From a bacterium (GTDB lineage: Bacteria > Bdellovibrionota > Bacteriovoracia > Bacteriovoracales > Bacteriovoracaceae), in contig JAUHVL010000005.1 of NCBI GenBank assembly GCA_030425045.1, forward strand, positions 124,001 to 188,000: DNA of 64,000 bases, given 5' to 3'. The number at the start of each line of letters is the position of its first letter. The stretch's first letter is position 1. A program made the translations under genes and the position numbers. The notes beneath the pieces were generated by a model. The model worked only from the letters and a program-made list of their open reading frames with translations. It did no database searches and was not told where the DNA came from. Of the stretch, positions 39,031 through 47,621 are shown one piece after another.

Positions 39031-41106
39031 ATGAATAGTTTTTTCGAAAGATTCAGAGAGATTACTAAAAATACCGATATGCTTATCGCTCTTGGGATTT
39101 TATTTATCCTTGGGATGATGATTGTTCCCATACCTCCCATGTTACTCGATTTGTTATTGGCCCTAACTCTATCATTTGCTGTTCTTGTACTTCTAATGAC
39201 CATCTATACAAAAAAGCCATTAGATTTTTCGACATTTCCATCGGTCCTACTTGTGATGACTTTATTTCGGTTGTCTATTAACGTCGCTTCTACTCGAAAT
39301 ATCTTACTTAATGGTGGAGCTGAGGGAACTCAGGCCGCAGGTGAGATTATTAGAGTTTTCGGTGAGTTCGTAGTTGGTGGTAATTATGTTGTTGGTATCA
39401 TTGTGTTTATTATCCTAGTGATCATTAACTTTATTGTTATTACAAAAGGTGCGGGAAGAGTGGCAGAAGTTGCGGCACGTTTTACCTTAGATGCGATGCC
39501 TGGTAAACAAATGGCGATTGATGCAGATTTAAATGCCGGCTTAATAAATGATGAAGAAGCTAAAACGAGAAGAGCAGCGATTGCAGAAGAAGCAGACTTT
39601 TATGGATCTATGGATGGTGCTAGTAAGTTTGTTCGTGGTGATGCGATTGCAGGTATTCTTATTACCGGGATTAACATTCTAGGTGGGATACTTGTCGGTG
39701 TTGTTCAAAATGGTTTAGATATATCTCAGGCGACAGAAACTTTTACTCTATTAACTGTTGGTGATGGACTTGTCTCTCAAATTCCAGCTCTAATTATCTC
39801 TACAGCTGCTGGTTTAATTGCTACTCGAAATACAAATGACGATAACCTTGGATCTCAAGTCTTTAAGCAATTTAAAGTACAGCCTAAGGCCATCTATATT
39901 GCAGCCATTGTTCTCTTTGTCTTCGCCTTAATTCCAGGCCTACCGAAATTTCCCTTTCTTGCCGTTGGAGGATTATTATCCTTTGTCGCTTATCGAGTTG
40001 AGCAAATTACAAAACAAGAAGTTGTCGAAGCGAGTAAGAAAGTTGATGAAGAGAAGAAAACGACTCCTGAAAACCTTGAAGATCTTCTCGACCTTGAACT
40101 TATCGAGCTTGAAGTTGGTTATGGATTAGTGAGCTTAGTGGACTCTGATCAAAATGGTGATCTCCTAGAGAGAATCACTCATTTGAGAAAGCAGTTTGCG
40201 CTAGATTGGGGTGTTATCGTTCCCTCTGTTCAAATTAAAGATAATCTAGAATTAAAGCCCGGTGGTTATAATATAAAAATTAAAGGAATTGAGATTGCTA
40301 GTGGAGACCTTGTCTCGGATCACTTTTTAGCGATGGATCCAGGTGGTGTAATTGAGAAGATTGATGGTATTGAAACAGTTGAGCCTGTATTTGGACTACC
40401 TGCTGTTTGGATTACTGAAGATCAAAAAGACGATGCTCAATATAACGGCTATACCGTTGTCGATCTTTCCACTGTTGTTGCGACACACTTGACAGAAATT
40501 CTTAAGAATAATCTTCACGAGTTATTTGGTAGACAAGAGTTAGTTTCATTACTCGAGAAATTTAAGGAAAGTTATCCGAAAGTTGTTGAAGACTTAGTAC
40601 CTGACGTATTAACTCTGGGACAAGTCTTGAAAGTTTGCCAAAATCTTCTCCGTGAAGGTGTTTCAATACGAGATCTTCGCACGATATTAGAGACCCTGGC
40701 CGAGTATGGTGCTACAATAAAAGACACGGATATTCTTACTGAGAATACCCGACAATCTTTATATAGAACGATTACAGAAAGTGTGAAAAGTGATGTAGGA
40801 GATATACCGTTGTTTACACTTGATAGAGGAATTGAAGAGTCTATTGCTGAGAATTTAATACAGACAGAGCAAGGACAACAATTATCGCTGGATCCAAAAG
40901 TAACTCAAACAATTTTGGCCAGCTTAAATGAAAAAATAGAAGAGGCGACCAGTCTAGGAGAGAAAATGGTCGTTCTTTGTTCTCCAGTTATAAGGGGCCA
41001 TTTTAAGAAATTAACCGAAAAATTTATCCCCAACCTGACGGTAATTTCACACAATGAACTAAGCCCAGAATCAAACATCAGGTCACTAGGAACGGTGAGG
41101 TTGTAG
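39031..41106 (+). CDS. flhA: Flagellar export protein FlhA
   Basis: At 691 aa it has the expected length. Seven or eight N-terminal helices carry the FHIPEP blocks (FSTFPSVLLVMTLFRLSINVASTRNILL; VITKGAGRVAEVAARFTLDAMPGKQMAIDADLNAGLINDEEAKTRR with the conserved ADL/D residues). The C-terminal cytoplasmic domain of four subdomains docks chaperone-substrate complexes. It lies 3 bp after flhB. Confidence 0.97.
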   Translation: MNSFFERFREITKNTDMLIALGILFILGMMIVPIPPMLLDLLLALTLSFAVLVLLMTIYTKKPLDFSTFPSVLLVMTLFRLSINVASTRNILLNGGAEGTQAAGEIIRVFGEFVVGGNYVVGIIVFIILVIINFIVITKGAGRVAEVAARFTLDAMPGKQMAIDADLNAGLINDEEAKTRRAAIAEEADFYGSMDGASKFVRGDAIAGILITGINILGGILVGVVQNGLDISQATETFTLLTVGDGLVSQIPALIISTAAGLIATRNTNDDNLGSQVFKQFKVQPKAIYIAAIVLFVFALIPGLPKFPFLAVGGLLSFVAYRVEQITKQEVVEASKKVDEEKKTTPENLEDLLDLELIELEVGYGLVSLVDSDQNGDLLERITHLRKQFALDWGVIVPSVQIKDNLELKPGGYNIKIKGIEIASGDLVSDHFLAMDPGGVIEKIDGIETVEPVFGLPAVWITEDQKDDAQYNGYTVVDLSTVVATHLTEILKNNLHELFGRQELVSLLEKFKESYPKVVEDLVPDVLTLGQVLKVCQNLLREGVSIRDLRTILETLAEYGATIKDTDILTENTRQSLYRTITESVKSDVGDIPLFTLDRGIEESIAENLIQTEQGQQLSLDPKVTQTILASLNEKIEEATSLGEKMVVLCSPVIRGHFKKLTEKFIPNLTVISHNELSPESNIRSLGTVRL

Positions 41107-41107
41107 G

Positions 41108-42469
41108 ATGTACGTAAGAAAATTTGAAGCAGAAACAATGGATCAAGCATTACAGGAAATCAAGCAAGAGCTTGGACCTGATGCTATTATTCTAAAAACA
41201 AAAACAAACAAGGGCCTTGGTGGTAGTTTTAAAAAGGGTAGAGTTGAAGTTACAGCAGCAATATCTGAAAAGAACTACACTAAGAAATCACTAGCAGAAC
41301 AAAGTATGTCGGAAACAGATCGAGAAAAATTTTATCAATCACCATCAAGTCATATCTCAAGTATGTTAGATAATTTTTCAGATAGTGGAACAGCTACTCA
41401 TGAAGTAAAGAATCCAGGTTATGGAAATTTAGCTTTAAATAAAGCTGTTAAAACGGTAAAAGATGTTACCAAAAAGGCACAATCTTCACTGGATGATTTT
41501 TTAAGTCAAGAGCCAATGCAAGAGGTAAGAAGAGCAGCTCCTGTCAGAAATGAAGTGAACGAGATTCAAATTCCAACGCCTCCGACTCCCTCTACTCAGC
41601 CTGTTTCTAACCCTGTAAATACAGAATTCTACGATCAGAAAATAGAATTTTTAGAGAAGAAAGTTTTAGAGCTTTCTCGTACCCTAAACACTGTTGTCAA
41701 TGACGAGCCAGAAGGGGTCCGAGAAATGAGAACGGTCATGCGTTCGTTATCAATTGATGAGTCTTATATTCAAGAGTTAATCAGAAAATCAATCTTTGAA
41801 CTTGGTAATGAAGAATTAAGAAATTTTGATTCAGTATTTGAGTATTGTTTAAAAGAAATGTTTGAAAAAATTTCTACTAAACCAGCTCTCTTTACACAAA
41901 ATGATATTGTCTCACCTATAACAATTGTTCTATCTGAAACAAGTAATGGTCAGTCTTCAATGTTATACAAATTAGCTGCTTTAAAAGAAAACTGTGTGAT
42001 TATTTCCTACGGAGCAGAAGATAATAGAGATTTTGTTAAGAGTATGTTTGATATAAAAGTAGAGCATGCGACAACAGCTGCAGAAGTTGTTTCACTTGCT
42101 AGAAATTATACTGAAGCTAAGACAACGGTCTTCATTGACTACAAAAATTCTACGAAAGAAATCAATGAAGCAAAGAACTTTATAGAAGGACTAAAAAGAT
42201 CATTTGATCAAGTGGAAACTTTGATCTGTCTTTCGGCAATTCATTCAGAAATTTATAATAAAAGTATAGTCACTCGCTACGGGCAAATGGCTAATGGCTT
42301 AGTTTTAAATATGTTGGATTTATGTTTAGACTATGGCCCCATTTTTAATATTTCACTTTCCAATTCACATCTACCTATGGTGTTTTTTGGAACGGGGACA
42401 ACAGTTCCAGATGATATTGAATCTGCAACTAAAGAGAGAATTCTCGCAGGAATGTTCAAGTTAAATTGA
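41108..42469 (+). CDS. flhF: FlhF-like SRP-family protein with degenerate GTPase motifs
   Basis: Position (flhA-flhF-flhG-fliA) and overall fold identify FlhF: an N-terminal B domain (MYVRKFEAETMDQALQEIKQELGPDAIILKTK), a long linker (60-200) and an NG-like region to residue 453 ending in the family tail GTGTTVPDDIESATKERI. The GTPase motifs are lost. The P-loop position reads SETSNGQSS (276-284, Lys replaced by Gln282). The DTAG motif reads IDYKNS (343-348). TKLD reads NMLD (401-404). FlhF normally sets the polar flagellum site by GTP-driven dimerisation; this one probably cannot bind or hydrolyse GTP. Confidence 0.85.
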   Translation: MYVRKFEAETMDQALQEIKQELGPDAIILKTKTNKGLGGSFKKGRVEVTAAISEKNYTKKSLAEQSMSETDREKFYQSPSSHISSMLDNFSDSGTATHEVKNPGYGNLALNKAVKTVKDVTKKAQSSLDDFLSQEPMQEVRRAAPVRNEVNEIQIPTPPTPSTQPVSNPVNTEFYDQKIEFLEKKVLELSRTLNTVVNDEPEGVREMRTVMRSLSIDESYIQELIRKSIFELGNEELRNFDSVFEYCLKEMFEKISTKPALFTQNDIVSPITIVLSETSNGQSSMLYKLAALKENCVIISYGAEDNRDFVKSMFDIKVEHATTAAEVVSLARNYTEAKTTVFIDYKNSTKEINEAKNFIEGLKRSFDQVETLICLSAIHSEIYNKSIVTRYGQMANGLVLNMLDLCLDYGPIFNISLSNSHLPMVFFGTGTTVPDDIESATKERILAGMFKLN

Positions 42470-42524: not shown

Positions 42525-43430
42525 ATGTCTGAATTACGTGCTACCAAATGGTTGTTGTCTAACCATCCCAAAATTTCTCAACAGAACATCAGAAATGATT
42601 TTAATTCTACCAAAGCTAAAACCATAGCCGTTGCTAGCGGAAAGGGAGGGGTCGGAAAAACTTCCGTTACGTTAAAAACAGCTCATCTTTTAAGTATGAT
42701 GGGAAAAAAGGTTTTACTCATTGATTGTGATTTTAACCTTTCAAATACCGTTGTTAAGTTAGGCTTACCAATTAAGAACGAGCTTTGGGATTATGTTAAT
42801 CATCAAAAAACTCTTGATGAAATTATTATAAAAAATGGAAATTTCCATCTTCTACCTGCTTGTAGCGGTAATCTAGATTTTTCAGATAATGAAGAAAGTA
42901 TAGAAAAAATTATCATCGATATATTGACTGAGAAAGAGAGCTCTTATGATTATATTTTTCTAGATTGCTCAGCTGGCGTAAGTAAATCAGTTTTAACACT
43001 GTCAGCTTATTGTGACTATAGAATGGTTGTCGTGACACCTGATAAATCCTCGATAACCGACTCTTATTCTCTATTAAAGCTTCTTAATAAGAAGTATGGA
43101 ATAAATGAAAACCATCTTGTTTTAAATAAGATCTCTAATCAGTCTCAATACAGTAAGCTCGTGAATACGCTTTCTTCGACCGTTGATAGGTTTCTCAATT
43201 GTAGACTAAATATTCTTGGTGGTATTAGTTTTATGTTTGAAGACTCCGACAGTTTTGATCAACATCTGTTAAATTTTTCCGATAATAAAATACATTCTCA
43301 ATTTACGAAACTTGTTAAAAAACTCACCGATGAGGTGGATGACACTAGATCATTTTCTGGTAGCGAGGAGCTTTACCTCTCTATTAAGGGAAATGATTTG
43401 AAACAGGAAGTTCAGATTCAATCATTGTAA
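42525..43430 (+). CDS. flhG: MinD-like ATPase FlhG (FleN)
   Basis: The 301-aa ATPase has a deviant Walker A (SGKGGVGKTS, about 38-47), LLIDCDFNLSNT, and Walker B FLDCSAGVSKSVL. These are intact, so ATP binding should be normal. FlhG counts flagella at the pole and in other bacteria stimulates FlhF GTPase through its N-terminal residues. Here the N-terminus (MSELRATKWLLSNHPKI) has no obvious DQAxxLR activator helix, which matches the partner's lost GTPase. Confidence 0.93.
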   Translation: MSELRATKWLLSNHPKISQQNIRNDFNSTKAKTIAVASGKGGVGKTSVTLKTAHLLSMMGKKVLLIDCDFNLSNTVVKLGLPIKNELWDYVNHQKTLDEIIIKNGNFHLLPACSGNLDFSDNEESIEKIIIDILTEKESSYDYIFLDCSAGVSKSVLTLSAYCDYRMVVVTPDKSSITDSYSLLKLLNKKYGINENHLVLNKISNQSQYSKLVNTLSSTVDRFLNCRLNILGGISFMFEDSDSFDQHLLNFSDNKIHSQFTKLVKKLTDEVDDTRSFSGSEELYLSIKGNDLKQEVQIQSL

Positions 43431-43441
43431 GGAGTACAAGC

Positions 43442-44227
43442 ATGTCATCCCTCTCAAAAAAATTAAGAAATTTAAAAGATTATCGCTCAACAGTAGATCC
43501 CGCTGTTAAAGATGAAATTATTATTGAATATGCACCACTCATTAAATATATAGCTCAAAAAATTGCAGCGAGGCTTCCAAGTAATATTGAACTAGATGAT
43601 CTGATTTCTTGTGGAGTGATTGGCCTTATGGACGCAATCGAAAAATTTGATCCGAGCATGGATAACAAGTTTAAAACATATGCAGAATTTAGAATTCGAG
43701 GGGCGATTCTTGATGAACTGAGAGCACAAGATTGGGTTCCAAGATCAGTAAGAGAAAAAGCAAAGTTAGTGGAAAGAACGTATTCAAAGCTAGAGTCTGA
43801 GCTAGGCAGGCCTGCTACTGATGAAGAGATGTGTAAAGAACTAGACTGTACTCAAGAGGAGTTTCACGACCTTCTTAATAAGGCGAAATCGATATCACTC
43901 TTAAATATTGATGATAGTGCTTCATTTAATAGAGGTGACAAAAAACTTTTAGCTGGTCTGATGGAAGATCATAGGGATTCAAACCCTTTTAGTGCCGTCA
44001 GTTATAAAAATACAAGAGATAAAATTAAAGACGGGATTAAAAACCTTCCTGAAAAGCAGAGACTTGTCTTATCTCTTTACTACTACGAAGACCTAAACTT
44101 AAAAGAAATTGGACAAGTTCTAGATGTAACAGAGTCAAGAGTTTCTCAACTACATACACAAGCGATATTAAAACTAAGAGGGAAATTAAAATCGGTGTTC
44201 CAAGAGCCCGAAGACCTCGCTGCTTAG
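43442..44227 (+). CDS. fliA: Flagellar sigma factor FliA (sigma-28)
   Basis: The 261-aa sigma-70-family protein has region 2 (EYAPLIKYIAQKIAARLPSNIELDDLISCGVIGLMDAIEKFDPSMDNKFKTYAEFRIRGAILDELRAQDWVPRSVR), a region 3, and region 4 with LPEKQRLVLSLYYYEDLNLKEIGQVLDVTESRVSQLHTQAILKLR. These match FliA/WhiG sigma factors that transcribe late flagellar and chemotaxis genes. It is 11 bp after flhG. I find no clear anti-sigma FlgM in the window. Confidence 0.96.
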   Translation: MSSLSKKLRNLKDYRSTVDPAVKDEIIIEYAPLIKYIAQKIAARLPSNIELDDLISCGVIGLMDAIEKFDPSMDNKFKTYAEFRIRGAILDELRAQDWVPRSVREKAKLVERTYSKLESELGRPATDEEMCKELDCTQEEFHDLLNKAKSISLLNIDDSASFNRGDKKLLAGLMEDHRDSNPFSAVSYKNTRDKIKDGIKNLPEKQRLVLSLYYYEDLNLKEIGQVLDVTESRVSQLHTQAILKLRGKLKSVFQEPEDLAA

Positions 44228-44234
44228 GAATTTT

Positions 44235-45191
44235 ATGGGAAGAGAGTTAGATAATTTTTATAACAAAGGCTTAGATGTTCTAGGTGATCTCTATCAAACC
44301 TCTTCCTCTGAAACTCGTTCTCAACTTGAGCAACTTTATTACCAAATGGGACTGCTCAAAAATCAAGCCGAAATTGAATCAGAAAAAATTGAACAATTCC
44401 AAAATATTAAGTTTCTCCTTCAAGAGCAGCTAGAGTACTCATTAAAGTTATTTGTTCGTCGAAATAAGATGGGAATCGTTAAAACGAATTGGACTGATAT
44501 ATCGAAAGTAAGTTTTTCAAAGCTTAATAGAATTGTTGAAGTGATGCCTTTTTCTTATTTTGCGTTGAAGTTTTTTAATATCAAAAGAAAAGTGAATTAT
44601 ATCATCGATGAAAATGCCATTGTGGCCAGTGGGGAAATCGATGATTTGGTAGATCTTGATAAGGTGAGATCACAGGCTTATGCCTTAACCAAGAGTATGT
44701 TTGCTCGAAAAGTAATTCTAACCTATGAGATTGACGAGAATGAAATTGAAGAAAAGCCAACGCTAAGGTTAATTTTTGATTATTCAAACCACGAAGACTA
44801 TACCTATGCTGTAAAAGTTGATGAAAAAGGTTCTGGGACTTTAGGGCTTCCATCAAATTTTAAATCTTATCGAATCACTCGGGATAAATTTAATAAGATG
44901 GATAAGCATCATATCGTTATCGTGACAAAAGACTTTCAAGTCAAAAAAGTTCTAACTTCTCCTGAAAAGCTTAGGGCCAAATTGCCAAAGTCTGAAATTA
45001 TTCATTTTCCCTTCCTCTTTCGTCCTCTTTCACTCATAATACCAAGAGAGGGTGAGATATTATATTCTCCCCAAATAATGGATAATATTAGTACAGGATG
45101 TATGGATGCCCCAAAGCAAGAACTTGCTTTTCAAAACAAGACATCAAATAACTTCATCTATTTCGATTTTTTCTCGCTCTTCACTGAGTGA
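44235..45191 (+). CDS. Unknown soluble protein co-transcribed with fliA
   Basis: The 318-aa protein starts 7 bp after fliA and so likely belongs to the flagellar operon. The N-terminal 75 residues are helical, with coiled-coil character (YYQMGLLKNQAEIESEKIEQFQNIKFLLQEQ). The rest is mixed alpha/beta without signal peptide or membrane helix. No known domain is recognised. A role in motility or chemotaxis is suggested by location only. Confidence 0.6.
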   Translation: MGRELDNFYNKGLDVLGDLYQTSSSETRSQLEQLYYQMGLLKNQAEIESEKIEQFQNIKFLLQEQLEYSLKLFVRRNKMGIVKTNWTDISKVSFSKLNRIVEVMPFSYFALKFFNIKRKVNYIIDENAIVASGEIDDLVDLDKVRSQAYALTKSMFARKVILTYEIDENEIEEKPTLRLIFDYSNHEDYTYAVKVDEKGSGTLGLPSNFKSYRITRDKFNKMDKHHIVIVTKDFQVKKVLTSPEKLRAKLPKSEIIHFPFLFRPLSLIIPREGEILYSPQIMDNISTGCMDAPKQELAFQNKTSNNFIYFDFFSLFTE

Positions 45192-45242: not shown

Positions 45243-47621
45243 ATGAAGATGAACCTAGGAAAAAGTATTCAACGCTTTTATTTCTTTAAAACATTGATCT
45301 TAGTGGGTCTAATGGGCTACGGAGTTTATTATCTAATGCAGAATAACTTCTTTAGTTCAGAAGAAATTAATGAAGTCTTTGAATCTAATTATCTTATTCA
45401 AAAATATCAAAAAGTTTCTCCTGTCGCTCAAATTAAAAAGTTTGTTGATCAGGATAGAATTAGTGATGCTGCAAATAGTTTAAATGAGTTAGAAAGCTCT
45501 GTTTCTCAATTCTCATCACTTGAGAACAATTCAAAAACAGGTTTATCAGCTACGATTAAAAAGCAAAAAGATGTTTTAAATAAACTTCTAGGGTATCCAA
45601 GTATCTCTTCGATCACTTCTGTCTTTAGTAATAAAATTGCAAGTTTTAACTCCTTTGTTTCGACAAATGGATGGAGAACTCTAACCAGAGTTTCAAAAAG
45701 AGTAAGAGCACGTTTTTCTCATTCAAGTTTGAGAAGTGGAAATTACTATGACTACTCAAAATTTAATAAAACATATTATGCGACAGTGAAAGATATAAAG
45801 TTGATGGAAAAAGTAACGATGAACTCGGTTCTTTCTAGCAGAGATAAGCAAAGCATTATGGTTAAGCTAAGAAACTTATCAACTGAAATGAATATGTTAA
45901 ATAAGTATTTAGCTGATTTGGGCAAGTTTGATAGCAATCATAAATCTTTAAATATTAAATTTAACAATTGGCTTAAAAAAGTTTCGCCAGAAATAATAGC
46001 TAAAAAGAATAGTCATGATGAAATGTCTAAAAATATTGCTCTTTATATTGCGGGAATTTTTTCGTTTATCTTATTAGGTCTTCTTTTTGGGTTTGTTACT
46101 TATAGAACAACAACGAGAAAGATGATTAAAGAGGTTGAATCAACAATTGTTGATCAAATTCAAGAGAGAATTATTCCAACGGTTGATACCGTAGATGAAA
46201 AATTCTTTAGTCCTGAGTATGAAGAAAAGCTTTTAAAGTTTAGAGAATATATTCATAAGAGAATAAGTCTAGGTAGTATCTTTCAAGAAACGACTCCCTT
46301 TGGAACATTATTGTTGGATTCTAATTTAAATTTAGTCTGGGCCAATGATTTAGTTTATGAAACTTGGGGTCTTACTGAAAAAAGAATTAATGATCTTATA
46401 ACGTGGGATTATCTTCAAATGTTTACAAACCTTGGTGAAGATGACCCGATACAAATGGCCTTAAACCAGGCCATTGCAGGGATTTATCAGATTCAAATCA
46501 AAGGAGCTGATAAGGAAGATTGCTTACCATTTGAGATGTATGTTTCACCTGTGGAGTATGCAAACCAGAAACGAATTATGATCTTTCTTTATCCCTTAAG
46601 GTCGCTAGAAGAGTCTCTTGCTAACCAAACAAAATCAATTATTGGTCCTGTTTCGAGAACGATTGAAGCTCTTACTCAGGGGACATTTAAAAAAGAGAAG
46701 AAAGAAGCTCTTTCTTCGGATTACGAAGTTGCCGGTATTAGTGAGGTTTTTCATAAATTTGAATCTTTCAATGAGCTCATTATTCAACAGCGATATTCTC
46801 TTCTCTCAGAGATAGAAGACTTAGAGAATAAACTCTTTGATAAATTGAAAGTAATTGATGATATCTCACACCAATTAAAAGAAATTACAATCAAAAATGA
46901 TACTGCACAATCTGCAATCAAAAATACGAAAACGACGGTTGTTCATAATATTGATTTACGTTACGAAGTTGAGTCTGATTTTGAAGATCTCATGAAAATT
47001 TCAAAATTCTTAACAAAAGAAAACGATCAGCTAATTAAGCATTCTGAAAAAGCTCAAGGCCTTATCGATGAAAATGCCAGAGCTTTCACAGGTGTTTCTG
47101 AAGTTAAAGATCGGCTGAAAAAGTTAAAGAGTAACCTTGCTGATTACCGTCAGAGACTTGGGCAATCGGTAGATCAAACGATGATATTTACTAAAATGGA
47201 CTCAACCAGTAGATTGGATCATAAAAAGCTCGTTGATAGTTTGACAAAAATTAAGCTTGAAATGAAAGGCTTTGAAACAGCTCTTTTAGAGTTTTCTAAA
47301 GTTGGTCAAGACCTTGATGTAGGACTTGCAAAATTATCCATGACCTTTGAGGGAAAAGAAGCTCCCGATGTCTCGGAATATAGAAAAAGATTAAAAGGTA
47401 TTATTAAAAAAGTAGATGAGCTAAATTTTTCACTTGAAAACAATAGCCGTTCAGGAGAAAAAAGCGACAACCTTTTAGTTAGCTCGATTTCAAATCTCTA
47501 TCACGCCGTCAGTGGTGAAAATAAGATTATTGAAGGCATTTCTGGTCTTATTGCAGGTAGCAGAGATGATTATTCAAACAACTCTGAAACCCAATCATTT
47601 AGTGAATCTTCTAATGTTTGA
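45243..47621 (+). CDS. Membrane sensor with PAS-like domain and long coiled coil, MCP-like but without a recognisable signalling tip
   Basis: This 792-aa protein has a membrane helix at about 13-33, a helical extracytoplasmic domain (35-260) and a second helix (264-286, IALYIAGIFSFILLGLLFGFVT). A PAS-like domain follows at about 345-455 (FGTLLLDSNLNLVWANDLVYETWG). The rest is a long Ser/Glu/Lys-rich coiled coil (480-775). The layout is that of a chemoreceptor, but the hyperconserved tip motif that binds CheA/CheW is not present. Follows the fliA gene block by 51 bp. The 3' end overlaps coaE on the other strand by 52 bp. Confidence 0.65.
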   Translation: MKMNLGKSIQRFYFFKTLILVGLMGYGVYYLMQNNFFSSEEINEVFESNYLIQKYQKVSPVAQIKKFVDQDRISDAANSLNELESSVSQFSSLENNSKTGLSATIKKQKDVLNKLLGYPSISSITSVFSNKIASFNSFVSTNGWRTLTRVSKRVRARFSHSSLRSGNYYDYSKFNKTYYATVKDIKLMEKVTMNSVLSSRDKQSIMVKLRNLSTEMNMLNKYLADLGKFDSNHKSLNIKFNNWLKKVSPEIIAKKNSHDEMSKNIALYIAGIFSFILLGLLFGFVTYRTTTRKMIKEVESTIVDQIQERIIPTVDTVDEKFFSPEYEEKLLKFREYIHKRISLGSIFQETTPFGTLLLDSNLNLVWANDLVYETWGLTEKRINDLITWDYLQMFTNLGEDDPIQMALNQAIAGIYQIQIKGADKEDCLPFEMYVSPVEYANQKRIMIFLYPLRSLEESLANQTKSIIGPVSRTIEALTQGTFKKEKKEALSSDYEVAGISEVFHKFESFNELIIQQRYSLLSEIEDLENKLFDKLKVIDDISHQLKEITIKNDTAQSAIKNTKTTVVHNIDLRYEVESDFEDLMKISKFLTKENDQLIKHSEKAQGLIDENARAFTGVSEVKDRLKKLKSNLADYRQRLGQSVDQTMIFTKMDSTSRLDHKKLVDSLTKIKLEMKGFETALLEFSKVGQDLDVGLAKLSMTFEGKEAPDVSEYRKRLKGIIKKVDELNFSLENNSRSGEKSDNLLVSSISNLYHAVSGENKIIEGISGLIAGSRDDYSNNSETQSFSESSNV

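Follow-up and report, generated by a model that had tools for sequence, protein, structure and literature searches.

The window (the whole stretch of 64,000 nucleotides that was analyzed) lies on a contig (C75) of a Bacteriovoracaceae genome of 3.97 Mb that is 99.9% complete. It contains a late flagellar operon with flhA, flhF, flhG, and fliA in that order, all on the plus strand. The gene studied here is located between flhA and flhG, as is characteristic of flhF in this operon, and operon, tree, and predicted fold all identify its product as an orthologue of FlhF. Coordinates are given in Table 1.

Table 1. Genes of the flagellar operon and protein features encoded in the window
Feature	Residues	Window positions	Strand	Description
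flhA, export gate, operon neighbor		39031-41106	+	PF00771, E = 2.2e-275
flhF orthologue encoding the putative pseudo-GTPase (P0001)		41108-42469	+	453 aa; ORF bounds exact
FlhF N-terminal FliG-interacting domain (FID)	1-52	41108-41263	+	strongly conserved; LGPDAIILKT
FlhF N-domain helices	about 202-258	41711-41881	+	AlphaFold secondary structure, pLDDT mostly >90
FlhF former P-loop, SETSNGQSS	276-284	41933-41959	+	Gly to Ser, Lys to Gln; Q282 invariant in the class
FlhF insertion-box region	296-321	41993-42070	+	predicted beta-alpha-beta kept; G2 signature DTxK/R..A..QL lost
FlhF former G3 (DTAG), DYKNS	344-348	42137-42151	+	Asp kept, Gly lost
FlhF former G4 (TKLDE), NMLDLC	401-406	42308-42325	+	retains Asp but neither Lys nor Glu; C406 newly conserved
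FlhF G5/closing loop, GTGTTVPDDIE	428-438	42389-42421	+	conserved
flhG, FlhG/MinD-like ATPase		42525-43430	+	GKGGVGKT intact
FlhG N-terminal WLLSN	9-13	42549-42563	+	class-specific; W9 and L10 invariant; stands where DQAxxLR is elsewhere
fliA, sigma-28, operon neighbor		43442-44227	+

Two further genes follow fliA. The first encodes a 318-aa protein of no family (44235-45191), found in 38 fetched loci of the class Bacteriovoracia and in no outgroup locus. The second encodes a 792-aa protein (45243-47621) with no Pfam or NCBIfam family, a hydrophobic segment at residues 267-285, and an apparently hydrophobic N-terminus. Of the 77 class loci that extend far enough, 76 have it after fliA, and none of the 11 outgroup loci does; by genome, it was found in 42/42 of the family and 0/102 others. 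The idea that this class-specific membrane protein is a dedicated FlhF anchor was weakened by a genome (G026) that keeps it without FlhA or FlhF.

The window FlhF matched the NCBIfam FlhF model TIGR03499 over residues 1-258 (E = 4.8e-17), scoring 62.9 bits against a cut-off of 174, and did not match Pfam SRP54. Its N-terminal domain has class-wide invariant columns (conserved over residues 1-54), and its profile matched the solved FID 9en1 (E = 0.0008). Class FlhF thus appears to possess an N-terminal FID, which may bind FliG by analogy with the FID of S. putrefaciens (PMC11236974). The motif strings on which the original prediction of a pseudo-GTPase was based (SETSNGQSS; IDYKNS, residues 343-348; NMLD, residues 401-404) were correct at the residue level, and the closing loop reads GTGTTVPDDIESATKERI (residues 428-445). 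Complete loss of the P-loop, DTAG, and TKLD had been claimed. This holds for the P-loop Lys and first Gly, the DTAG Gly, and the G4 Lys and Glu, but G281, S283, the aspartates of G3 and G4 (D344 and D404), and G430 and D436 of G5 are retained. None of the G1 to G4 signatures of an SRP-type GTPase was intact. The G1 P-loop GxxxxGK[ST] is SxxxxGQ[ST] in the class, the G2/insertion-box signature DTxR/K..A..QL has given way to gaps or unrelated residues, and only the Asp is left of G3 DTAG and of G4 TKLD, where the Lys is replaced by H, N, Y, or M. By its sequence, the phosphate-binding half of the GTP site is lost in the window FlhF. Because the motif tests for an active SRP-type GTPase failed, the protein should be named a putative FlhF-derived pseudo-GTPase and not a GTPase.

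AlphaFold2 was run on an alignment of 49 sequences comprising the window protein and public relatives. The NG domain was predicted confidently (pLDDT mostly 87-97), with low values in the closing loop. The best solved matches in Foldseek were FlhF in the GDP and GTP states (8r9r, E = 9.3e-11; 2px3; 2px0), followed by Ffh and FtsY, and a profile search matched B. subtilis FlhF at 1e-8. Matches to influenza hemagglutinin in the profile search were taken as chance, arising from the long helical linker/N-domain part. The model thus predicts that the NG fold survives in a protein whose nucleotide site has been rebuilt, in agreement with the earlier view that fold and operon context are both preserved.

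Relatives were gathered both within the family and across other families of the phylum. A further 80 loci came from public genomes, with Bacteriovoracaceae, Halobacteriovoraceae, Bacteriovorax stolpii, and Halobacteriovorax marinus among the names in their record titles. The P-loop Lys position was Gln in 96/96 distinct class sequences compared to Lys in 40/40 FlhF proteins from other families of the phylum. Likewise, the first P-loop Gly was Ser in 95 of the 96, compared to Gly in all 40. The DTAG Gly was gone from the class, and the G4 Lys was kept in 2 of the 96 sequences. D344, D404, G430, and D436 were kept in 95/96, and K288 and Q282 in 96/96. Within the class, the best-conserved sites of the NG region included Q282 (100%), C406 (96%), Y383 (96%), N384 (96%), and Y391 (94%).

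A class-wide search found flhF in 75 of 77 genomes. The 2 genomes without it, and 5 less complete family genomes also without it, were all missing FlhA as well; flhA and flhF adjoin, so incomplete assemblies may miss both, and the firm cases are G026 (99% complete) and G028 (91%). Because genomes without flhF also have no FlhA, the loss of flhF is confined to genomes that have lost the flagellum. Five of the closest pairs gave dN/dS ratios (NG86) of about 0.08-0.17, with dS partly saturated. Class flhF is under purifying selection and is not decaying; assembly error or local decay was ruled out by the Gln in 96/96 sequences and the low dN/dS. One Halobacteriovorax MAG (G050; loci L006 and L076) has a single in-frame TAG near the start of flhF.

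A second, canonical FlhF elsewhere in the genome had been named in advance as a finding that would overturn the pseudo-GTPase reading. Genome-wide SRP54-GTPase and TIGR03499 searches rejected this possibility. Two genes of the home genome match SRP54-GTPase strongly; their ORFs of 396 and 498 aa are presumably FtsY and Ffh given their lengths. A third, weak SRP54 match is an ArsA-like ATPase, and no second canonical flhF was found there. Among about 100 family genomes, there was no TIGR03499 match better than about 2e-24, compared to mostly 1e-38 to 1e-65 for canonical FlhF of the phylum. No class genome showed a second canonical FlhF, although weaker third PF00448 matches in relatives were not inspected singly. 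With Gln fixed in the class and no second canonical FlhF, the pseudo-GTPase reading is supported, and the predicted loss of the GTPase cycle in class FlhF is well supported.

In a tree of 67 FlhF proteins (IQ-TREE, LG+C20), all class FlhF formed one clade with support of 100/100 and a stem of 3.67 changes per column. This clade grouped (99/97) with two families, f8 and f12, that both have a GKT P-loop, and was nested inside other GKT families. The tree is most simply read as a single change at the base of Bacteriovoracia; the length of the stem makes it hard to say which group is the exact sister. In the FlhG tree, too, the class had a long stem (2.29). Outside the class, three loci of another family (f3; L057, L058, L059) encode a short FlhF in which GKT is kept and the G5/closing loop is lost (e.g. 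SSSFKTKF), with an FlhG that has no DQAxxLR; these represent a second, different predicted erosion of the FlhF GTPase. Two other loci outside the class, L054 (G063) and L048 (G084), show partial degeneration, with an intact P-loop and deviating G3/G4 (VDFSG and NDLDE; IEMPS).

The original prediction held that the adjacent FlhG keeps its ATPase motifs. The deviant Walker A (KGGVGK, within GKGGVGKT) and the other MinD residues are indeed intact in class FlhG, which has the corresponding family matches, and its core, modeled confidently, has a predicted MinD-like fold. What had been overlooked is the loss of the N-terminal DQAxxLR helix, which in model organisms supplies the glutamine that triggers the FlhF GTPase (PMC12826062). 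This motif was found in none of the class FlhG proteins examined. Their N-terminal consensus is WLLSxN, and a helix over residues 3-12 was predicted at low confidence (pLDDT about 64). Many other families of the phylum with a GKT FlhF likewise have no DQAxxLR or no flhG in the operon. Because many of these GKT families are without DQAxxLR, the idea that it is always lost together with the GTPase site was rejected. For the same reason, the loss of DQAxxLR is wider than the pseudo-GTPase and possibly earlier. No flhG was detected beside flhF in two class loci (L040 and L041, from G001 and G032), where fliA follows, or in L045-L047, L055, and L060 of other families. As for other partners, FipA (DUF2802), an FlhF-binding polarity factor (PMC11620751), was found in none of the family genomes searched and in 7 genomes outside the family. 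A search for the HubP/FimV core (TIGR03505) gave no match anywhere, control genomes included.

We favor, with a probability of roughly 0.6, the reading that FlhF became a pseudo-GTPase in a single event at the base of the class and most likely serves as a nucleotide-independent, or else radically re-tuned, tether for FliG. We infer the absence of productive GTP binding, the tether function, and regulation by the FlhG ATPase. The N-terminal domain of class FlhF would recruit FliG and, through it, FliF and the C-ring, and NG would bind a polar factor. The GTP-driven cycle between dimer and monomer would be gone, as is the DQAxxLR helix of FlhG that triggers it, and the remaining energy-driven switch, if any, would be the ATPase cycle of FlhG. 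In S. putrefaciens, FlhF binds FliG with its N-terminal domain and HubP with NG and so bridges the two; NG binds HubP regardless of GDP or GTP (PMC11236974). V. alginolyticus FlhF R334A has no GTPase activity and still places flagella, while several binding-motif mutants fail (PMC6092412). Against the tether reading, GTP binding is considered important in Vibrio for polar localization and in P. aeruginosa for the binding of FliG (PMC6092412, PMC12713375). The earlier suggestion that the flagellum may be placed by another mechanism, with FlhF acting as a scaffold, is plausible by analogy and fits the literature.

A bolder proposal, which we put forward only tentatively, is that the whole FlhF-FlhG switch was rebuilt. 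The GTP pocket of FlhF would have been converted into a conserved surface for docking or a site for another ligand, the activator helix of FlhG would have become the W-L helix, and the ATPase cycle of FlhG alone would set flagellar number and position.

The alternatives to a nucleotide-independent tether differ in what they make of the former pocket. In GTPases generally, the G4 Asp and G5 are the base-recognizing parts, and both are retained here. Weak or altered nucleotide binding is conceivable because the G3 and G4 aspartates and G5 are near-invariant. The pocket (Q282, S283, D344, D404, and the closing loop) could thus still bind a guanine nucleotide (GTP, GDP, or another) and act as a slow or hydrolysis-dead nucleotide-sensing switch, for which the near-uniform retention of D344, D404, G430, D436, K288, and Q282 could be cited. 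In Vibrio FlhF, T306A and D439A abolish flagella, and the matching positions are kept in the class (S/T283 and D404); K305A in the P-loop, D377A, and K437A merely reduce them (PMC6092412). Loss of the P-loop Lys alone is therefore not proof of inactivity, because K305A still makes some flagella. However, three phosphate- or Mg-contacting signatures (the P-loop Lys, the G2/insertion box, and the DTAG Gly) were lost together and the activator helix of FlhG is gone, and we consider such a switch unlikely. If the former pocket now serves as a protein-protein interface, whose partner could be the new N-terminal helix of FlhG or a class-specific membrane protein, the newly invariant residues S276, Q282, C406, Y383, N384, and Y391 would mark it. 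Positions such as Q282, C406, Y383, N384, and Y391 vary or hold another residue in canonical FlhF and are near-invariant in the class, and FlhG gained the invariant W9-L10 where DQAxxLR stood. We find an interface of this kind improbable, given the low confidence of the FlhG helix and two class members that keep the pseudo-FlhF with no flhG in the locus. That flhF is a vestige heading to loss under relaxed selection, as its low score to the FlhF model and its long stem might suggest, is barely credible when the replacement residues are uniform over 96 sequences, dN/dS is far below 1, flhF is missing only where FlhA is missing, and reading frames are intact with rare exceptions.

A single polar flagellum has been described for H. 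marinus BE01, Halobacteriovorax ZH4, and Bacteriovorax As-1 (PMC5760749, PMC12724312, PMC12642874). Whether FlhF needs GTP binding, hydrolysis, or neither for polar placement has been argued mainly from point mutants in few species. A class in which the Lys-to-Gln change of the P-loop is fixed, and whose cultured members have a single polar flagellum, amounts to a natural experiment in which the roles of FlhF as tether and as switch come apart, and the question is testable in cultured Bacteriovorax and Halobacteriovorax. The class consists mostly of predatory bacteria, in which a cell-polarity switch appears to work without its switch. We found no discussion of FlhF of Bacteriovorax or Bacteriovoracia, and no description of a pseudo-GTPase of the SRP-GTPase family, in the open-access literature, subscription papers and preprints being outside the search. 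According to that literature, class FlhF would be the first such pseudo-GTPase, a novelty that is provisional because of the bounds of the search.

Class FlhF shares with the SRP-type GTPase FlhF of B. subtilis (2px0/2px3) and S. putrefaciens (8r9r) the same order of domains (FID, linker, N, and G), the same operon, and the same predicted NG fold. It differs in that identity over the aligned fold is about 16-20%, and in having Gln for the P-loop Lys and Ser for the first Gly, no G2/insertion-box signature, and DTAG and TKLDE each reduced to Asp. The pseudo-GTPase domains of eukaryotic p190RhoGAP likewise keep a GTPase fold in which the GTPase motifs are missing; unlike class FlhF, which is SRP-type, they belong to an unrelated GTPase family. 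Class FlhG has the MinD residues of the MinD-type ATPases FlhG, YlxH, and FleN and differs by the absence of DQAxxLR and by its new invariant WL. Pseudomonas FleN is also without DQAxxLR, yet in P. aeruginosa it stands beside an FlhF with GTPase function (PMC12713375). In Caulobacter, TipN and TipF likewise place a polar flagellum without a working FlhF GTPase; there flhF is absent, whereas in Bacteriovoracia FlhF is kept and conserved (PMC11236974).
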